A stretch of DNA of 64,000 nucleotides, from positions 12,579,200-12,643,199 of the forward strand of contig OX439131.1 of the NCBI GenBank assembly GCA_949318235.1, in the 5' to 3' direction. This stretch comes from Ecdyonurus torrentis. Its lineage: Eukaryota > Arthropoda > Insecta > Ephemeroptera > Heptageniidae. Made by a program: the position numbers and the translations under genes. Below, piece by piece: positions 8,090 through 54,928 of the stretch; the stretch's first letter is position 1, and each line of letters opens with the position of its first letter. The notes beneath the pieces are model-generated. The model searched no databases. It had not been told where the DNA came from and worked only from the letters and a program-made list of their open reading frames with translations.

Positions 8090-34127
<26,038 letters not shown>

Positions 34128-42488: not shown

Positions 42489-43101
42489 TTTCATTTTACT
42501 CTTAAAAAGTTTAAAAAAAAAAAATATTTAGAAAATAGTTGTAGAGATTAGAGCACGTTGAATTGAAAATTAATAAAACGCGAAAATTCTCTAATTTAAA
42601 TAGTAAATTGGGACTAGGGATCAAATATTCTAGCTTTAGCTAGTTAAAAAGTAGACGTTAAAGGGATGGAGGTATAGTGTCAAAATAAAATACAATGTGC
42701 CTAGCATCTCACGTTCTCACACCACGTCAAAGACACAACATTATAAAACAGCATCAGACTTACTCTTTGCCTTAAACCGGTCTAAGGCAAAGAGTAAGTC
42801 TGATGCTGTTTTATAATGTTGTGTCTTTGACGTGGTGTGAGAACGTGAGATGCTAGGCACATTGTATTTTATTTTGACACTATACCTCCATCCCTTTAAC
42901 GTCTACTTTTTAACTAGCTAAAGCTAGAATATTTGATCCCTAGTCCCAATTTACTATTTAAATTAGAGAATTTTCGCGTTTTATTAATTTTCAATTCAAC
43001 GTGCTCTAATCTCTACAACTATTTTCTAAATATTTTTTTTTTTTAAACTTTTTAATACTAACCGCGATGGTTTTTTCCTAATACGCATTTCATTTTACTC
43101 T
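42489..43101. mobile_element. Family E fold-back element, near-perfect hairpin (E1), 14-bp target duplication
   Basis: TTTCATTTTACTCT lies at 42489-42502 and 43088-43101. The two arms, about 250 bp each (from about 42520 to 42774 and 42783 to 43040), are almost identical inverted copies. The hinge AACCGGTC (42775-42782) corresponds to hammerhead stem III plus the cleavage base, while the CTGATGA core and stem II are missing. The right end has AACCGCGATGGTT as a small hairpin, then TTTTCCTAATACGCA. It lies between the LRR gene and UXS1. Confidence 0.88.
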
Positions 43102-45214: not shown

Positions 45215-48200
45215 ACTCCCCTTCAAGAAATTGAAGCAATGAAAGTTGAAAACTATTGCAACATTACAAGTATTTCTGATATTAAATAGTAAAATAAGAA
45301 TAGCTGACTAAATTATACCTTTGGTTCCCATCCTAGGTATTTTCTAGCCCTTGTTATATCAGGTTTGCGTCGTTGTGGATCATCTTGCACTGCTGCTACT
45401 TGCTGGATCTTACTGGTACCTCCCACTAACTTCTGTATAATCTCAGCAAATTCTAAACAAATAATACAGCGACCGTCAATGTAATATAAATCTCAATTAT
45501 ATAATGTTATTTATCCATCATATTAAACAATTATTTTTTTCCTTAAATTATTTTAAGCACTTTTTTTTAATGTTTATATTTTTTTACACAATACAAAATG
45601 TATATTTGATGCAATAATCTGCCTGCGGGAGTGAGCCAGAATGAAGCTTTCCTGGTAATTTGGTGAAGGGCTGTGTCTTAATATACCACAGACCTAAAAT
45701 ACTGTACTCCTCTGAACTCCTACTACCAGACCTGTGCGGCTTGGACAACCTTTTACCATATGATGTCAGTACTCATTACCATGAACATCATCACCATCAT
45801 TATTATGATGGTTTAATTGCCAGGCCTGCCTCTCTGCACTGTGCTGACAACCCAAATGCTTAAACACACTGAGACATCACTGCTCAACACCATACAAGCT
45901 GGTCATTATGTTCATCCAGCACACTAGCCACTATACCACAGGGACAGGTTTATTTGTTTACATACTGTATAACAGAAATTACATACCTTCAATTGTATGC
46001 TCAGTTGGGTTGCCCAGATTGACAGGTTGAGACATGTTGGAAGCCATCAGCAATACCAAGCCATCCACCAAGTCAGAAACGTACTGGAATGATCTGGTTT
46101 GCTTCCCATGTCCATAAATCTAAAATTATGGAATAAATGTTTAAGTCAAGTCTAAATCACAGTATGCAATTTATTTGATTTCATGATATGATCACAATAT
46201 ATGTTATCCCTCAAAAAAAAAAAAAAAATCATCAACTTCAAAAAAAAAAAAAAAAAAAAAAGTACCCATATCTAATTGTAAAGTGATCTTACAATAATAA
46301 AACAACAATATGAACAATTTTTTTTTCTAGTTTTGGTCAGAAGACTTCGTAAACATTAGTTGTATTTTGATTATTAAAGAAAAGCTCAAGCTAGAATATT
46401 TGATCCCTAGTCCCAATTTACTCTATTTAAATTAGAGAATTTTCGCGTTTTATTAATTTTCAATTCAACATGCTCTAATCTCTACCAACTATTTTCTAAA
46501 TATATTTTTTAAACTTATTAATACTAACCCCGATGTTTTTTTCCTAATACGCATATTATCGCCAAGTCAATCTTTTTGTTTTAATTTTAAGCTTTTGTAA
46601 ATAATATTCTTTCATTTTTATTTTATTCGGCCCTGCTTTTACTTGCCAACGTCAATAAGAGCACGTACTAAATTAATTAAACTATATGCCAAAGCGCATA
46701 ATATTTATTCTATCTCTCCTACTCTATCATCTTTTTGCTTTTCCTACCCCAGTGTCAACATATAAAGCGATGTAACTAGCGTGAATCACGATACTGTGCA
46801 GTCGGTAGGCGTAGTGCTCTCGCGATCTTTCTAGAGTTGGGGAACTCTGGGAAATGAGGGAGGACACATATTGCTTGCTGGCTGCCTGTCTTACACCCCT
46901 CTTAGACACGATTTTATATTACAGTGTGAGGATGAGAGGTTTTAAACAGCAAGCCGAGTTTGCGCGCGCGATTTTAACCAATCAGCGCGTGCAGCTGCGG
47001 GGGCATCGCGTATAAAAACGCGACTGCCACTTGCTTCCTCAGCTCAGTCAGTTAGCAGATGTGGTGTGAGCCATCTCTAGCTGTACAGAGCTCTCTGCCG
47101 AGCCTTACTGATGAGTCCTAGGTAAAGGACGAAACCGGTTTAAGGCAAAGAGTAAGTCTGATGCTGTTTTATAATGTTGTGTCTTTGACGTAGTGTGAGA
47201 ACGTGAGATGCTAGGCACATCGTATTTTATTTTGACACTATACCTCCATCCCTTTAACGTCTACTTTTTAACTAGCTCAAGCTAGAATATTTGATCCCTA
47301 GTCCCAATTTACTATTTAAATTAGAGAATTTTCGCGTTTTATTAATTTTCAATTCAACGTGCTCTAATCTCTACCAATTATTTTCTAAAAAAATAATTAG
47401 AAAATAGTTGGTAGAGATTAGAGCACGTTGAATTGAAAATTAATAAAACGCGAAAATTCTCTAATTTAAATAGTAAATTGGGACTAGGGATGCAAATCAT
47501 GCTAGCTTGCGCTAGATAAAAATAGACGTTAAAAGGGATGAGGGGTATATAGTGTCAATGTAAAATACGATATACCTAACATCTCACGTTCTCACACTAC
47601 ATCAGAGGCACAACATTATAAAACAGCATCAGACTTACTCTTGGCCTTAGACCGGTTTCGTCCTTTACCTAGGACTCATCAGTAAGACTCGGCAGAGAGC
47701 TCTGTACAGCTGTACAGCTGTACAGCTGTACAGCACAGCTGTACATCAGAGGCACAACATTATAAAACAGCATCAGACTTACTCTTGGCCTTAGACCGGT
47801 TTCGTCCTTTACCTAGGACTCATCAGTAAGACTCGGCAGAGAGCTCTGTACAGCTGTACAGAGCTCTCTGCCGAGTCTTACTGATGAGTCCTAGGTAAAG
47901 GACGAAACCGGTCTAAGGCCAAGAGTAAGTCTGATGCTGTTTTATAATGTTGTGCCTCTGATGTAGTGTGAGAACGTGAGATGTTAGGTATATCGTATTT
48001 TACATTGACACTATATACCCCTCATCCCTTTTAACGTCTATTTTTATCTAGCGCAAGCTGGCATGATTTGCATCCCTAGTCCCAATTTACTATTTAAATT
48101 AGAGAATTTTCGCGTTTTATTAATTTTCAATTCAACGTGCTCTAATCTCTACCAACTATTTTCTAATTATTTTTTTAAACCGCGATGGTTTTTTTCCTAT

Positions 48201-51200
48201 ATTATAAGTATTTTCTAAATATATTTTTTAAACTTATTAATACCAGGCTACTTCATACCCTATGTTAATTGTGTCTCCGTTTTCAAGCATATTGCTGTTT
48301 TCGACAACCAGGGGGCTCTGGCTGACATCGCGAACACCCCACCCACCCACCCTCACACGATGCATTCGAACACTCATCCCTCCCTTTTGTACATAACATT
48401 TTGCCTTTTTCTTATAAATATATTTTTTTTCTTTTGCGCGATCTTTTTCAAGAGGAGGTGAAAACTATAATGCATTTCTTGACTTATAATTGTCGTAGAA
48501 TCATGAATGAAACGAGAAAATAAGTTATTTTTTTCCAAAACTATGTAATAAATGATAAAATTAAGGCTATCATGAATATTTAAGAAAGTTAATATTTCGA
48601 TTGAATTTTATTACTCCTGCGGTTTCATGCTGTGACTACCCTTTTCGGTCCTTTTTGGGAGGGAGTGAAAAATATCAATGCATTACTTGACTTCTAATTG
48701 TCGTAGAATCACGAATGAAACGAGAACATAAGTTATTTTTTTACAAAACTATTTAATAAATGATAAAATTAAGGCTATCATGAATATTTGAGAAAGTTAA
48801 TATTTCGATTGAATTTTTATTACTCTTGCGATTTCACGCTGTGACTACCCTAAATACCCTTCCGGTTGCCTCGTCCCCCTCCTCCCCCGTTGGAGGGAGA
48901 TTGTAAATTTTTCTTTCATACTGAAAAAGACCTTTCGAGAGTAAGAAAAAGGGACAATGAGTACAACTACTGCCATCCAGTGAACAGAAACACGATGAGA
49001 AAAAACGGCGACATTCCGTCCATATGGTCTAGAGTTATATATATTCTTTATTATATGTTAATACTAACCGCGATGGTTTTTTCCTAATACGCTTATTAAA
49101 GAAAAGGATAGAAATACCAACAAGGGCCAATCACAGTAGAAGTTCTATGGGGAGGCTGAGGCCTCCTGTGACACAGAGTTATATTTATAATGTTTGTATA
49201 ACTGAGAGCTTTTGTCATCATAATGACATTTTCAATGAAAGAATAGATTTACTTGAGCACATCAAAGAGGGGGCAAATCTTGTACTGCTATAGAGTAAGC
49301 TATTCAACATGTGTTAGTTTTTTTGTTTGTTTTTTTATCTCTGTGCTAGCAAAATTTAAAACTTTCTTCACCATGGTAAAGCTCTTGCAGGGTTTCTCCT
49401 ATCCTCTTCTTTCAAATTTACCACATATCTAACCATAATTGATACATCTTTAATTTATTTTCAATGTATTTAAAGTGAGAAAATGATTTAAAAAAAGGTC
49501 TTACTGTTATTGAGAATCACAGGAAAGATAATAATTTAACAATTAAAGCACATCATTTGAAAAATTTATATCACGGGAAAATCTTTAATTATTGAAACAA
49601 CTAATGGGACATTTCTATAATTAAAAGTTTTCATGAAGTAACATAATTTTCCATGTGATATGCTTTAATTATTAAACTATATTATCTTAACTTTGATTTA
49701 TATTATAAACTTTTTTTTTTTAATAGTATATAATCTTACTGTTATTGAGTCATTTTTTAGAGCTTGTAAAATGAAGTTAGAAACTACTCTGCCATCATTC
49801 ATATGCATTCTTGGTCCAAATGTGTTGAATATCCTGGCAACTCGTACTGCTACATTTTCTTGTTGAGCATAAGCATAGCTCAAAGTTTCTGCTACTCGTT
49901 TTCCCTCATCATAGCATGCACGGGGTCCTGCAAATCAATTGAATACATTTACAGACAATATATTGATTATATTTCATTTTTATAGTTAATTTTATTGTCT
50001 TCTGCAAATGCTATACAGTATGTTATACACAGCATACTACATAATTACAGTTATATAAATATCAATATTCCAAATGATTTATTTCTAAATCCCCACTATC
50101 AAAAAGCAGCAATGATTTAAAGACTCTGTACTTTTATTAAACTTATGAATACAGTGCATGGCATGGCCTAAGGCCACAATGAGGAAGGCAAATTGAAATT
50201 TTTTTTGTTGAGTTTATGATATTTTTGGAAAGTGCTTTAAAAATTTTTGAGGTGCTATTTTTTCTTAGGATGATTGGAGCATGCGAATTATTTTTAATTA
50301 ATTTTTGAAAATCGGCCTAGAAAGCCTGTGACGTCATCAGTCCACTTTTTTCTCGGCAAATACTAATCGTTCGAGGTTCAGCAAACAGTTTAATGAAATC
50401 AGCTTGTCCTCAGGATTTTAAAAATCTGGCCACTGAACCTTCTATGGTCAATACTTTTAAAAATAAATGCCCGATTGATGACGTCACAGGCTTTTTAGAT
50501 CGATTTTCAAAAATTAATTAAAAATACTTCCCATGCTCTACTCGTTCTAAGAAAAGATACCGCCTCAAAAATTTTTAACGCTCTTTACAAAAATGTCATA
50601 AAAAGTGGGGGTTAAAAAAATCCACCTTCCTCATTGATAAAGTTTTGTATCACACTGTCTGTACTAAAAATATATATCACAACTATTTAGTAGGAGATAG
50701 ATTAGAGCATGTTGAATTGAAAATAAATGAACATGAAGATTCTCTAATTTATATAGTTAATTGGGACTTGGGATCAAATGCTCTAGCACTCATCTATGCT
50801 AGAACATTTGCTCCAAGTGTCAATTAACTTTAAAAATTAGAGAATCTTTGTATTTTATTAATTTTCCATCCAACGAGCTCTAATCTCTCTCCTTCTATTT
50901 TCTATTATTATATTATTATTATTATTTAAAATCTAATGTATCCGCCGTTTTAACTCATTTTTAACTCACAACTATTTAGTATTAAATTGTTTTTATTTTA
51001 ATTACCTATTATTTTACTTTCATTATGATTATTATTTATTGCAGCATTCATAAGCTAATAATAACAAAACTACCAATTTAAAGTTAATACAAAAATAAAT
51101 GTCATGGCATATAGCCTACAGCTTTACTTGCAATTAAAAAAAACTATCATTAGTGTCAAATTAAGCTTACATTTGTAATTAATGACTTTTTCTTAACTTT

Positions 51201-52383: not shown

Positions 52384-54928
52384 TACTCCAATGTGTACTT
52401 AAATGACTTAAGCCTTTTTTTTCCCTTGCTAAATAAACAAATGTGAATTGCAACAAATTGAATATCATAATGACGTAAGATAAAAATAACAATTTTTCTC
52501 TGTAAAACTATTTATTGCAAGTCATTTAAAACAACAAATCAAATATTGGCTGGTATTACATTATTGTGAAATAAAATTTAATGTTTTGAAAATTTGACGT
52601 AGGAAAACACACACAAACACAGTGTTGTTTAAAATTTTGCAAATATTTCAGGGTCTCATCGCAATGCATGCATCAACTTATTTAATACTATACTGTAATT
52701 ATAAAACTAAATAAAAAGAAAAAGATAGGCTCATCATTACACAGCTATAATGCAGAGCAATACACATATAGCTTTGTGTGCACGTAAGCGATAGATTCTA
52801 TCGCCTATTTGCACATGAAGGCTACGAGTATTTTTCTTTAGCATAGCTGTGTAATGATAGGCTTTTTACTATCCTTTTCTTATTATTTACCATCATTATA
52901 TAACTAATTACGTTTTAAAAAAATAATTAGAAAATAGTTGGTAGAGATTAGAGCACGTTGAATTGAAAATTAATAAAACGCGAAAATTCTCTAATTTAAA
53001 TAGTAAATTGGGACTAGGGATGCAAATCATTATAGCTTGCGCTAAATAAAAATAGACATTAAAAGGGATGAGGGGTATAGTGTCAATGTAAAATACGATA
53101 TACCTAACATCTCACGTTCTCACACTGCATCAAAGGCACAACATTATAAAACAGTATCAGACTTACTCTTGGCCTTAGACCGGTTTCGTCCTTTACCTAG
53201 GACTCATCAGTAAGGCTCGGCAGAGAGCTCTGTACAGCTAGAGATGGCTCACACCACATCTGCTAACTGACTGAGCTGAGGAAGCAAGTGGCAGCCGCGT
53301 TTTTATATGCGATGCCCCCGCAGCTGCTCGCGCTGATTGGTTGAACAATCGCGCGCGCAAACCCGGCTTGCTATTTAAAACCTCTCATCCTCACACTGTA
53401 ATATAATATTGTGCACTATTTTTATTTAGCGCAAGCTATAATGATTTGCATCCCTAGTCCCAATTTACTATTTAAATTAGAGAATTTTCGCGTTTTATTA
53501 ATTTTCAATTCAACGTGCTCTAATCTCTACCAACTATTTTCTAATTTTTTTTTTAAAACGTAATTAATACCAACCGCGATGGTTCTTTCCTATATATTAT
53601 ATCATTATATAACTGCGATTTTTTATCTAATTGTATGTACGTATATGTATATACAATTAGATTTTTTTTCAATAAAAAGTTATAATTTAGAGTAGATTTA
53701 AAAATACTGGAAGGGAATTTTTTTATGCATGTCAACTTTTTTTTGTCTTACTTATTCAAAGACTATATTTGCATCACTACCTAGAACTGTGCAATGTAAA
53801 AAGTACTTGCATAGCATATTAACATAACTCACCTAGAATGTTGATAGTTCCAAGAGTATTTGTTTTTATGGTCTTGACTGGGTTGAGCATATAATGAGGA
53901 GGTGATGCAGGACTAGCCAGGTGATAAATTTCATCCACCTCAATGAACAGAGGTCGAACGATGTCATGGTGAATCAGTTCAAAATTTTCATGCCCAAGCC
54001 AATGTTCAACGTTTCTCTTACGTCCAGTGAAGAAATTGTCCACAACGATCACCTCATGTCCAGCAAGCATGAGACGATCAACAAGATGAGAGCCAACAAA
54101 GCCTGCTCCTCCAGTTACCTGAAATCATATGTAAACTATTTTATTTTATTGTATTACGAGAGAGATTGCAGTGCAATAGTTTAAATATAAGTTTTTAATA
54201 GCTCATAGGGAATTTCTAATTAAAAAAAGGTTATACCACACCTAAATAAGAGATTATTCAAATTTAATTACTTACCAATATTCTTTTCCTTGTCAAAGTT
54301 AAAAAGTTAACGTTAGGATATTTTTTAGGTATCCTCTTATCAAGCTCGAGTAATTTTGACTCGAGCTCTCGTATTCTCAGCTTAGCTTCTTGTAGCTCTT
54401 GCTGATCACTTAAAGCTCCCAGAGGCTGAGGAGCCGTGTCATAGTCTGCCCTGTTGCTGATGATTTGCTTGTTGTTTTTGAACTCATCATCTGCTTCATG
54501 ATGATAGGATGCACCTTTAATGGCATTGTCAAGCTGGCCATTGTATTCATCAACTAACTCGCTGTGAGCCCAGTTTATGTAAAATCCAAGCACTGTAAAA
54601 TTAAAAAAAAATATTATACATCAATCTATTGATCAAGGTGGGAAATCAATAAATATTTTATAGTTTTTTTTCCCTCCATTATGACTTAAGTTATTTTAGT
54701 CTGTGCAATACATACTGTATATGATGTATATGTATAATAAGAACTTTTAAAAGTTGCTGTAAAAAGTTGGAACAGCACACATGAAACAAGTTTTAACTGT
54801 TTTTGTAGTAAGTCAAATCAATATTAACATTCACCACCCAAAATTCTCAATTATTCTATGCACTTACCCCCTAGTAGACAGACAAAAATGATGATAAGAC
54901 GTCTCATTTTTCTACCTACATAATTCAT
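44023..54928 (-). CDS. Uxs1: UDP-glucuronate decarboxylase (UDP-xylose synthase), complete
   Basis: Coding exons 5' to 3': 54868-54928, 54276-54592, 53833-54118, 51955-52068, 49740-49927, 45987-46119, 45319-45452 and 44023-44145; phases agree, giving 451 residues. The enzyme converts UDP-glucuronate to UDP-xylose using bound NAD, in the Golgi lumen, supplying xylose for glycosaminoglycan linkers. Two ATGs (MNYVGRK and MRRL) open the frame; the first is used here. A signal anchor ([18 protein letters not shown]) is followed by a coiled-coil-like stem ([16 protein letters not shown]). Then come the Rossmann motif [36 protein letters not shown], the STSEVYGDP box, catalytic YDEGK (Tyr near 265), [18 protein letters not shown] and [10 protein letters not shown]. 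All active-site motifs are intact. Its introns hold hammerhead-bearing repeats in sense orientation. Confidence 0.95.
44260..44333. repeat. (AT)n plus (AG)n microsatellite
   Basis: An AT dinucleotide run is followed by about 50 bp of AG repeats inside the last UXS1 intron. Confidence 0.95.
44340..44650 (+). mobile_element. 3' end of a LINE (RTE/CR1-like tail), copy 2
   Basis: The frame from 44356 reads [20 protein letters not shown] and continues [12 protein letters not shown] to TGA at 44589. GGGATTATAGCGTCATGATA and a TATGTATATA tail follow. It is nearly identical to 37787-38130 and lies antisense in a UXS1 intron. Confidence 0.85.
45453..45986. other. UXS1 intron, moderately GC-rich patch at 45620-45930 unexplained
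   Basis: The patch is richer in GC than the surrounding intron and has a short open frame (45660-45863), but no domain or splice evidence. It may be a remnant of a mobile element. Confidence 0.4.
46383..46556 (+). mobile_element. Family E element, 5'-truncated copy (E2)
   Basis: AGCTCAAGCTAGAATATTTG through the E arm to the 3' terminus ACTAACCCCGATG, then TTTTTTTCCTAATACGCA. It starts inside the arm and keeps the intact terminal end. No clear flanking duplication was found. Confidence 0.75.
46971..47050 (+). promoter_or_regulatory. CCAAT-TATA-initiator promoter of element E3
   Basis: AACCAATCAGCGCG lies just before 46990, TATAAAAACG at 47011-47020, and the initiator TCAGTCAGTT at 47044-47053, about 33 bp beyond the TATA box. 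The leader then carries GCAGATGTGGTGTGAGC and CTCTAGCTGTACAGAG before the hammerhead at 47102. Confidence 0.65.
47102..47146 (+). ncRNA. Hammerhead ribozyme, family E (E3, plus strand)
   Basis: Stem I GCCTTA (47102-47107), CTGATGA (47108-47114), stem II GTCC/GGAC with loop TAGGTAAA (47115-47130), GAA (47131-47133), loopless stem III ACC/GGT (47134-47139), cleavage base T (47140) and stem I return TAAGGC (47141-47146). All invariant core bases are present and stem I pairs perfectly. It is open at stem I, so type I. With no stem III loop, activity would be expected mainly as a dimer. Confidence 0.92.
47643..47692 (-). ncRNA. Hammerhead ribozyme, family E, tandem copy 1
   Basis: On the minus strand: TCTTA, CTGATGA, GTCC, TAGGTAAA, GGAC, GAA, ACCGGT, cleavage base C and TAAGGCC. 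The core is intact and the cleavage base is the preferred C. Stem I has four Watson-Crick pairs plus a G-U wobble. It is sense-oriented in the UXS1 intron. Confidence 0.9.
47787..47836 (-). ncRNA. Hammerhead ribozyme, family E, tandem copy 2
   Basis: Identical to 47643-47692, 144 bp away, in the second tandem unit. A transcript across both would carry two ribozymes separated by a short unit, able to release a 144-nt monomer. Confidence 0.9.
47870..47920 (+). ncRNA. Hammerhead ribozyme, family E, inverted copy
   Basis: The plus-strand mirror of 47787-47836 across the palindrome hinge, with CTGATGA at 47881-47887 and cleavage expected after the C in CCGGTC (about 47912). All core bases are kept. 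Antisense to UXS1. Confidence 0.9.
48459..48855 (+). repeat. Two-copy direct repeat of about 206 bp
   Basis: Blocks TAATTGTCGTAGAATCA.GA and ATGATAAAATTAAGGCTATC, then TGAATATTT.AGAAAGTTAA and TTCA.GCTGTGACTACCC, occur in both 48459-48655 and 48665-48852. It is non-coding DNA in a UXS1 intron. Confidence 0.85.
49060..49440. mobile_element. Family E 3' terminus (49060-49094) abutting a family D copy (49094-49440)
   Basis: AATACTAACCGCGATGG and TTTTTTCCTAATACGC form a lone E terminus. AAAGAAAAGGATAGAAATAC then starts a D element that ends GGTTTCTCCTATCCTCTTC. The D copy is diverged, with inner TTATCTCTGTGCTAGCAAAA. Confidence 0.65.
50178..50635. repeat. Palindromic MITE, family G
   Basis: AATGAGGAAGG at the left is mirrored by CCTTCCTCATT at the right. 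Inner arms AAAAATTTTTGAGG, AATTAATTTTTGAAAATCG and GCCTGTGACGTCATC are mirrored by their complements. It lies in a UXS1 intron. No ORF. Confidence 0.8.
50689..50915. mobile_element. Family E, degenerate short palindrome (E5)
   Basis: GATTAGAGCATGTTGAATTG and TTGGGACTTGGGATCAAATG are mirrored by AGAGAATCTTTGTATTTTAT and AACGAGCTCTAATCTCT. The cassette with promoter and ribozyme is absent; the hinge lies near 50793. Confidence 0.7.
52329..52381. repeat. (AC)n microsatellite
   Basis: About 26 AC dinucleotide units in a UXS1 intron. Confidence 0.95.
52722..52872. repeat. Palindromic repeat
   Basis: AGATAGGCTCATCATTACAC and AGCTAT are mirrored by ATAGCTGTGTAATGATAGGC. The hinge region has GCGATAGATTCTATCGC. 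It lies just left of element E4. Confidence 0.75.
53171..53220 (-). ncRNA. Hammerhead ribozyme, family E (E4)
   Basis: Minus strand: GCCTTA, CTGATGA, GTCC, TAGGTAAA, GGAC, GAA, ACCGGT, cleavage base C and TAAGGC. Stem I pairs perfectly over six bases and the core is canonical. It is preceded by the CTCTAGCTGTACAGAGCTC leader shared with E3. Confidence 0.92.
53265..53340 (-). promoter_or_regulatory. CCAAT-TATA-initiator promoter of element E4
   Basis: CCAATCAGCGCGAGCAGC from 53340, TATAAAAACGCGGC from 53307 and TCAGTCAGTT at 53274-53265. The spacings to each other and to the hammerhead match those of element E3. Confidence 0.65.

Follow-up and report, generated by a model that had tools for sequence, protein, structure and literature searches.

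Hammerhead-bearing tandem repeat units in the mayfly Ecdyonurus torrentis: non-autonomous retroelements probably inserted by Penelope-like machinery

The closest described relatives of the elements reported here are Penelope-like elements (PLEs) and the retrozymes of animals. The report on the purified PLE protein PAc describes cutting and extension of both target strands, with initiation at two internal sites bounding a 30-40 bp tail; the PAc hammerhead ribozyme needs protein and was dispensable for insertion in vitro, and the same report presents the later insertion steps as still to be validated (PMC11167929). For rotifer Penelope, an inverted repeat 37 bp shorter, a 31-bp tail, TATA and initiator (Inr) words and palindromic junctions are described, with self-priming as the favoured origin (PMC3846280). 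PLEs have also been proposed as the movers of small animal retrozymes (PMC7229834, PMC7761336). We analysed a 64,000-nt stretch of the E. torrentis genome (the window; assembly GCA_949318235.1, contig OX439131.1, positions 12,579,200 to 12,643,199), starting from a preliminary description of hammerhead ribozymes in fold-back repeats. These repeats are probably non-autonomous, promoter-bearing retroelements with a unit of ~900 nt and a type I hammerhead, most likely copied in by PLE machinery acting in trans. The chemistry reported for PAc appears to match the form of their insertions in part.

All seven hammerhead-shaped sequences of the preliminary description are present in the window. Two (47102-47146 and 47870-47920) lie on the + strand and the other five on the - strand, and together they occupy five insertions (A1, A3, A4, B1, and B2), the hammerheads at 47643, 47787, and 47870 sharing the single palindromic insertion A3. 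Six copies have the full motif, with core, three stems, U16.1, and H17; the core of the 21036 copy in B2 reads CUGGUGA (A6 changed), and this copy is probably inactive. A type I descriptor (stem I at least 5/6, exact CTGANGA, 4-bp stem II, GAAA, paired stem III, U16.1 and H17) found 6 matches in the window versus 0 in 200 dinucleotide shuffles, and allowing one core mismatch added 21036 for a total of 7 (shuffle mean 0.05 over 40). In the 28500 hammerhead, stem I (GCCATG/CATAGC) is broken at a single pair, where CATGGC is read in three sister loci that we fetched.

The covariance-model check proposed for these structures was passed by family B copies elsewhere in the genome but by none in the window, where an Rfam search gave no match at the gathering score. 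Below that score all seven hammerheads were matched: RF00163 (cut-off 34) scored 53172-53216 at 30.0 bits and 47102-47146 at 26.1, RF00008 gave 32.9 bits for three hammerheads (cut-off 48.5) and 23.1 bits (E 2.1) at 21040-21101, and HH9 gave 32.2 (cut-off 52) at 28488-28561. Across the 503-Mb assembly (117 contigs), 27 of 32 RF00163 matches lay above the cut-off, with 74 of 32,802 first-look candidates scored, and there were 0 in 14 control genomes. Three fetched above-threshold loci are sister copies of the 28500 family (family B) with stem I unbroken; fetched family B sister copies scored 44 and 39.2 bits, and family A copies at loci L010 and L025 scored 30.0 bits, under the RF00163 cut-off. 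Matches to Rfam microRNA models were all below their cut-offs and were taken to be long palindromes.

Covariation was evaluated in a hand-made structural alignment of seven distinct ribozymes (five window types, one of them standing for three copies, and two from fetched relatives), in which pairing is kept in 83 of 84 cells and both sides have changed in 7 of the 12 pairs. A MAFFT alignment proved inconsistent with the structure and was set aside. When each family was represented by a single sequence, true strand partners formed 30 of 30 pairs versus 22-27 for swapped partners. Minimum-energy folds did not cleanly show the three-way junction (z -1.4 and -2.0). The covariation is genuine, with pairing kept while stems differ, although it comes from three families only. 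Because the stems of these families differ with pairing kept, and because models and descriptor find matches, we conclude from the sequences that the hammerhead RNA structure is real.

Exact ribozyme cores of family A, the main family, number 513+513 = 1,026 genome-wide, versus 0 for a reversed-pattern control. Forty clusters, all with an intact core, were fetched from the first part of 100 listed core places on one contig. The tandem unit of this family is 886-904 nt long and is bounded by predicted cleavage sites. At L010, successive cuts lie 901 nt apart, the two complete + strand units are identical over 901 nt, and the four complete units of both arms have 0 mismatches (one with a 3-nt length difference); the three complete units of L014 have 0 mismatches of 888. 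Between arrays, units differ by 0-7 substitutions plus length changes within a subfamily, and by ~100 from the L025 subfamily. In 7 of the 40 loci, at least one complete unit lies between two same-strand exact cores. An internal-deletion copy (L090) has had ribozyme stem II removed.

The unit is non-coding. Its longest open reading frame (ORF) with an ATG has 45 aa, translation of 46375-47000 gave frames full of stops, and no word for a Pol III A or B box was found in it. Lacking coding capacity, it can be at most a non-autonomous client and is not an autonomous PLE, which would carry a reverse transcriptase (RT) and a GIY-YIG endonuclease. A splice-donor-like word (GAGTAAGT) stands at unit position 10, just downstream of the cleavage site.

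In the window copies, TATA and Inr-like words lie upstream of the ribozyme, as does CCAAT except in B1, where none was found; these consensus matches together form a candidate promoter. TATA and one Inr-like A are 34-35 nt apart in all four window copies holding both (A1, A4, B1, and B2, from two families). From TATA to the ribozyme core the distance is 97, 97, 97, and 100 nt in the same order, although families A and B differ in sequence. If this block is a real promoter, it would explain how elements of this kind remain transcribed.

We evaluated insertion form in 35 tail-bearing insertions, 33 of them from the 40 fetched loci and two from the window (A5 and A4); the seven fetched loci with no recognised tail were left out, so tail-free insertions are excluded by selection. 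Target duplications of at least 12 bp (12-16 bp) flank 22 of the 35, versus 14 of 1,190 for exchanged flanks. In the window, duplications in the same range flank five insertions (A5, A4, C1, B3, and E), that of A3 is tentative (11 bp), and a 14-letter target word stands three times around B1 and the insertion next to it. Eighteen of the 22 insertions are two-armed and four single-armed, the arms having been ordered by a script that modelled head-to-head arrangements only, which is also the order observed. In two-armed insertions, one arm ends in a ~32-nt tail (unit ~315), a stem-loop of the AACCGCGATGGTT type, and the other arm has none: it ends at unit 285 or earlier in 18 of 18, and two tails occur in none. 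The tail-less arm ends at one site (unit ~283, 282-284) in 12 of 18 and is shorter in the other 6; in the A4-type subfamily, the common arm end as read by eye is within ~3 nt of the equivalent site. The arms, of independent length, run up to three tandem laps. With tandem ribozyme-bounded units, a longest ORF of 45 aa, these duplications, and a PLE-like, one-tailed, head-to-head form, the elements can be placed among the non-autonomous retroelements of the PLE and animal-retrozyme class, as had been proposed.

The genome has PLEs of its own. With a query of generic PLE RT motifs, at least 146 places were found, whose frames reach 915 aa. A representative (L056) has an RVT_1 domain and, by eye, a C-terminal GIY-YIG-like stretch, and its relatives in insects and other animals are labelled PF00078, PF28514, and PF26215, the last two of which presumably go with PLEs. 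Among 12 loci that we looked at, all of one group (L051-L062), these autonomous elements have one end with a 36-nt tail and a tail-less other end 36 nt earlier in all six with both ends visible. The ribozyme elements thus follow the rule of the resident PLEs. Wherever an end of the L051-L062 elements could be seen, it lies in an AT microsatellite, and a tandem array with a 2,775-bp period is found on C12. The GIY-YIG Pfam model was rejected for finding PLEs. Its two matches over the cut-off are, as named by eye, an SLX1-like frame and a frame combining OTU-like and GIY-YIG parts, and the model misses the resident elements, whose domain is too divergent (no match for L056, 16.8 of 22.6 bits for L063). 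One long open frame (L050) combines a GIY-YIG match with an OTU-like part by eye and is not a PLE.

Among competing explanations, the best surviving one, which we consider rather unlikely, is that the units have no lineage of their own and derive from an undiscovered autonomous PLE of the same family, as its solo or internally deleted terminal repeats. PLE terminal repeats are described as carrying TATA and Inr words and hammerheads and as following the tail logic seen here (PMC3846280, PMC11167929), and a repeat of another resident group, at L063, has a TATA and, by eye, a minimal hammerhead-like sequence. What repeats in our families, however, is a constant tandem unit of ~900 nt without an open frame, and it shares no sequence with the few groups of PLEs compared. 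The terminal repeat in question (L063:464-676) contains TATATAAG, and its hammerhead-like sequence, with ATG at stem II, is PAc-like; an Rfam search of L063 did not report it.

The junctions between arms bear on a second explanation, an improbable one, in which a single tail-primed complementary DNA (cDNA) folds at a short palindrome and is extended along its own strand to give the inverted arm. Such self-priming has been proposed for Penelope junctions, there on an antisense template (PMC3846280). It would account for the palindromic centres seen by eye, ACCGGT (A5, L091), AGCT (A3), and CCTAGG (L044), and a one-base asymmetry of A5 fits a G-T primed end. The tail-less arm, however, is the longer one in 7 of 18 two-armed insertions, or 6 once L010, whose arm holds a later 756-bp insertion, is removed (L014, L025, L028, L038, L045, A4), so that in general it is no copy of the tail arm. 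A few junctions are centred on short palindromes; most, read by eye, join different unit positions with little or no homology, and a second end fixed at ~32 nt from the other is not a prediction of self-priming. The unequal arms remove it as a general route, although it could still make near-perfect palindromes. L091 and window positions 42774-42781, on different contigs, have the same stem III palindrome centre, with one C and one T at the cleavage base.

Less probable again is a short interspersed nuclear element (SINE)-like origin with movement by a long interspersed nuclear element (LINE), such as the endonuclease-RT element at 10947-13868 of the window, an intact-looking open frame of 973 aa with both domains. 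The insertions look target-primed, with variable target duplications and 5' truncation, but the unit lacks the Pol III box words, no tail-like word was found near the window LINE, and two 3' ends and head-to-head arms are, to our knowledge, not LINE features. Very improbable is a terminal-inverted-repeat DNA transposon (a miniature inverted-repeat transposable element or fold-back element) carrying the ribozyme by chance, since for all the long inverted arms and target duplications the duplication length varies (12-16 bp), the ends are asymmetric with a tail on one only, 4 of 22 insertions are single-armed, and arms reach three tandem laps. The fold-back form named in the preliminary description is an insertion signature and not that of a terminal-inverted-repeat element.

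Fifty of 82 matching stretches are longer than ~411 nt, the maximum from a single-copy linear transcript between Inr-like site and tail, in a ribozyme-selected sample that favours long arms. Such lengths would need tandem read-through or circular templates, and the data fit either. Copies starting at the predicted cleavage site were sought with a pattern for unit 1-24, which occurs at 1,100 places genome-wide. In the first 100, the exact core lies upstream in 73; we examined all other 27, of which L017 and L038 account for two and L074-L095 for 25. Point or single-base changes are found in eleven (one of these, in L085, is also apparently truncated at ~-36), one has an internal deletion, and the remaining 15 places represent ten truncation events within 32 nt. 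The predicted cleavage nucleotide is the exact start in three events (L081, L082, L088) and, after filler, in a fourth (L093). The others are single, at about -4, -8, -12, -21, -30, and -32; those at -4 and -12 recur in apparently duplicated DNA, and the -8 event comprises the two arms of a single palindrome. By hand arithmetic, the chance of at least 3 of 10 events at one given position of 33 is near 0.003. We regard these copies as suggestive of ribozyme-cut templates. Heads at unit 1 that BLAST ends had indicated in L017, L038, and L044 were wrong, the letters placing them 4-27 nt upstream.

Several observations count against the explanation that we favour. The unit 1-24 pattern is blind to starts just downstream, which creates an edge effect at position 1, and in the core-selected sample 1 of 82 arm heads lies at the cut (in A5). 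PAc is reported to have inserted uncut RNA, with no reads at its cut site, and its start sites to show no strand difference, unlike the one tail per insertion found here (PMC11167929). Each copy also has a second Inr-like word, at 30, 30, 22, and 11 nt, so the 34-35 nt spacing is a choice. In longer stretches, arms within an insertion differ by 19.5 mismatches per kb versus 14.8 (n 348) between insertions of the same subfamily; the former value comes from 25 matches, several being other repeats, and makes the whole-arm comparison uninformative. Evidence in its favour comes from a 101-nt stretch, over which the mean arm difference is 0.53 within insertions (n 19) versus 1.57 between them (n 171). 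Neither tails nor terminal repeats are shared between the ribozyme families and PLEs L051-L062 and L063-L065, and the ribozyme-family tail words were not found in L051-L065 or L069-L073, a thin comparison in which L051-L062 are one group and only L069 of L069-L073 has a recognisable PLE start.

In the cycle that we propose, RNA polymerase II would start at the Inr-like site ~100 nt upstream of the predicted cut, and the ribozymes would release from tandem-copy transcripts RNAs of unit length, which bear a 5'-OH and a cyclic phosphate and may then be ligated into circles. A cut unit would carry its own promoter, unlike the simple transcript of a single copy. The target DNA would be cut with a 12-16 bp stagger, and reverse transcription would begin inside the RNA from both target 3' ends, at the tail end (unit ~315) for one of them and ~32 nt upstream (unit ~283) for the other, after which the two antisense cDNAs would meet head-to-head and be joined at little or no homology. 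Because a few copies start exactly at the predicted cleavage nucleotide, some templates were probably cut by the ribozyme beforehand. A broader reading, which we offer tentatively as possible but doubtful, is that this genome is a natural record of Penelope integration: both target strands would prime on one RNA at two start sites separated by ~32-36 nt, which may correspond to the two active sites of an RT dimer and would each serve exactly once per insertion, the ribozyme would cut and circularise tandem transcripts so that the polymerase II promoter upstream of the start site is carried onward, and starts at the cleavage nucleotide would be germ-line run-off products of ribozyme-cut RNA. 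PLE second-strand synthesis and the role of PLE hammerheads are described as unsettled (PMC11167929), and more than 1,000 exact cores, the one-tail rule, independent arm lengths, and occasional cut-site starts make both questions testable by counting. The elements also offer a compact substrate for an in vitro test.

Table 1. Hammerheads, promoter-like blocks, and insertions in the window (window positions; assignments of function are predicted).
Feature	Position	Strand	Remarks
Type I hammerhead, copy A1	47102-47146	+	predicted cut 47140/47141, H17 = U
Type I hammerhead, copy A4 (listed in the preliminary description)	53172-53216	-	predicted cut 53178/53177, H17 = C
Hammerhead, left arm of palindromic insertion A3	47644-47693	-	predicted cut 47650/47649
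Hammerhead, second - copy within A3	47788-47837	-	predicted cut 47794/47793
Hammerhead, right arm of A3	47870-47919	+	predicted cut 47913/47914
Family B hammerhead, copy B1	28505-28549	-	one broken stem I pair; predicted cut 28511/28510
Hammerhead-like, copy B2	21036-21076	-	core CUGGUGA, probably inactive
Promoter-like block, A1	46976-47049	+	CCAAT 46976-46989, TATA 47010-47016, Inr-like TCAGTC 47044-47049
Promoter-like block, A4	53269-53342	-	CCAAT 53329-53342, TATA 53299-53308, Inr-like 53269-53274
Promoter-like block, B1	28603-28641	-	TATA 28635-28641; Inr-like 28615-28620 (22 nt from TATA) and ~28603-28608 (34 nt)
Promoter-like block, B2	21131-21205	-	CCAAT 21192-21205, TATA 21165-21171, Inr-like 21131-21138
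Insertion A4	52906-53600	-	left arm long, tail-less, with promoter block and ribozyme; right arm short, tailed (tail ~53567-53600); arms head-to-head
A4 target duplication	52892-52905 / 53601-53614		left copy ATCATTATATAACT
Insertion A5	42503-43087	+	near-perfect palindrome with its centre at ribozyme stem III (ACCGGT); tail ~43056-43087
A5 target duplication	42489-42502 / 43088-43101		left copy TTTCATTTTACTCT
Insertion A3, nested in A1	47390-48208	+	arms 332 nt; tentative 11-bp target duplication 47379-47389 / 48209-48219
Copy A1	46383-47389	+	single sense arm, longer than one tandem unit (direct repeats spaced 889 apart); resumes ~48209-48243 behind A3; no target duplication found
Insertion B1	28199-28729	-	flanked by TTAAGACAAAGAAA at 28185-28198 and 28730-28743
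Second family B insertion, same target word	28744-29486	-	third word copy 29487-29500
Insertion B2	20548-21352	-	target duplication not convincing (10 bp)
Family B palindrome without ribozyme (B3)	19012-19360	-	target duplication 18999-19011 / 19361-19373
Family C palindrome without ribozyme, related tail (C1)	18590-18962	+	target duplication 18578-18589 / 18963-18974
Short relative without ribozyme (E)	50693-50965	+	16-bp target duplication 50677-50692 / 50966-50981

The window itself is animal DNA, with exons of a USP9X/FAF-like gene on the - strand (best match 73% identity) and, besides these exons and the LINE frame, many palindromic repeats. Family C palindromes without a ribozyme (18590-18962 and 49058-49288 in the window, and ~739-1001 of L066) have a tail that is related to the family A one (AACCGCAATG..TTTTTTCC); several element families may thus share one RT. 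Family C also matches DNA adjoining the PLE in L054, outside the PLE proper.

In the hammerhead, retrozyme, and Penelope literature, judged by titles and with subscription journals mostly outside coverage, we found no title describing this family. The terminons are likewise PLE relatives with hammerheads, but those described are giant and telomeric (PMC6431247), whereas our elements are small and have copies along a 58-Mb contig. The plant long terminal repeat (LTR) retrozymes are also hammerhead-bearing non-autonomous retroelements, with a reported LTR promoter (PMC4918200, PMC9695139, PMC12029980); they differ in having type III hammerheads and LTRs (PMC7761336). The non-LTR retrozymes of metazoans come closer, as many-copy non-coding repeats with type I hammerheads and a weak, often palindromic helix III (PMC7229834, PMC7761336). 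Their units are given as about 150-400 nt, versus 886-904 nt here, although retrozyme circles of 150 to >1000 nt are also mentioned (PMC7229834). They seem to harbour no promoter (PMC7761336), whereas our unit has a promoter-like block, and the head-to-head arms with a tail are a further difference.

The relation to PLEs and retrozymes drawn in the preliminary description therefore holds by architecture; the PLEs compared share no sequence with our elements, which have neither RT nor endonuclease, and the longer unit with its promoter-like block sets them apart from the small retrozymes. In comparison with PAc, whose hammerhead lies at the ORF start (PMC11167929), the type I ribozyme here is fuller and its predicted cut precedes the tail end by ~315 nt. 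At 12-16 bp, the target duplications are longer than the 8-10 bp of published PLE examples (PMC3846280). With PLEs of the Penelope/Poseidon type, as described, the elements have in common a one-sided tail of 30-40 nt, a shorter inverted repeat, head-to-head arms, partial tandems, TATA and Inr words, target duplications, and a hammerhead in the repeat (PMC3846280, PMC11167929).

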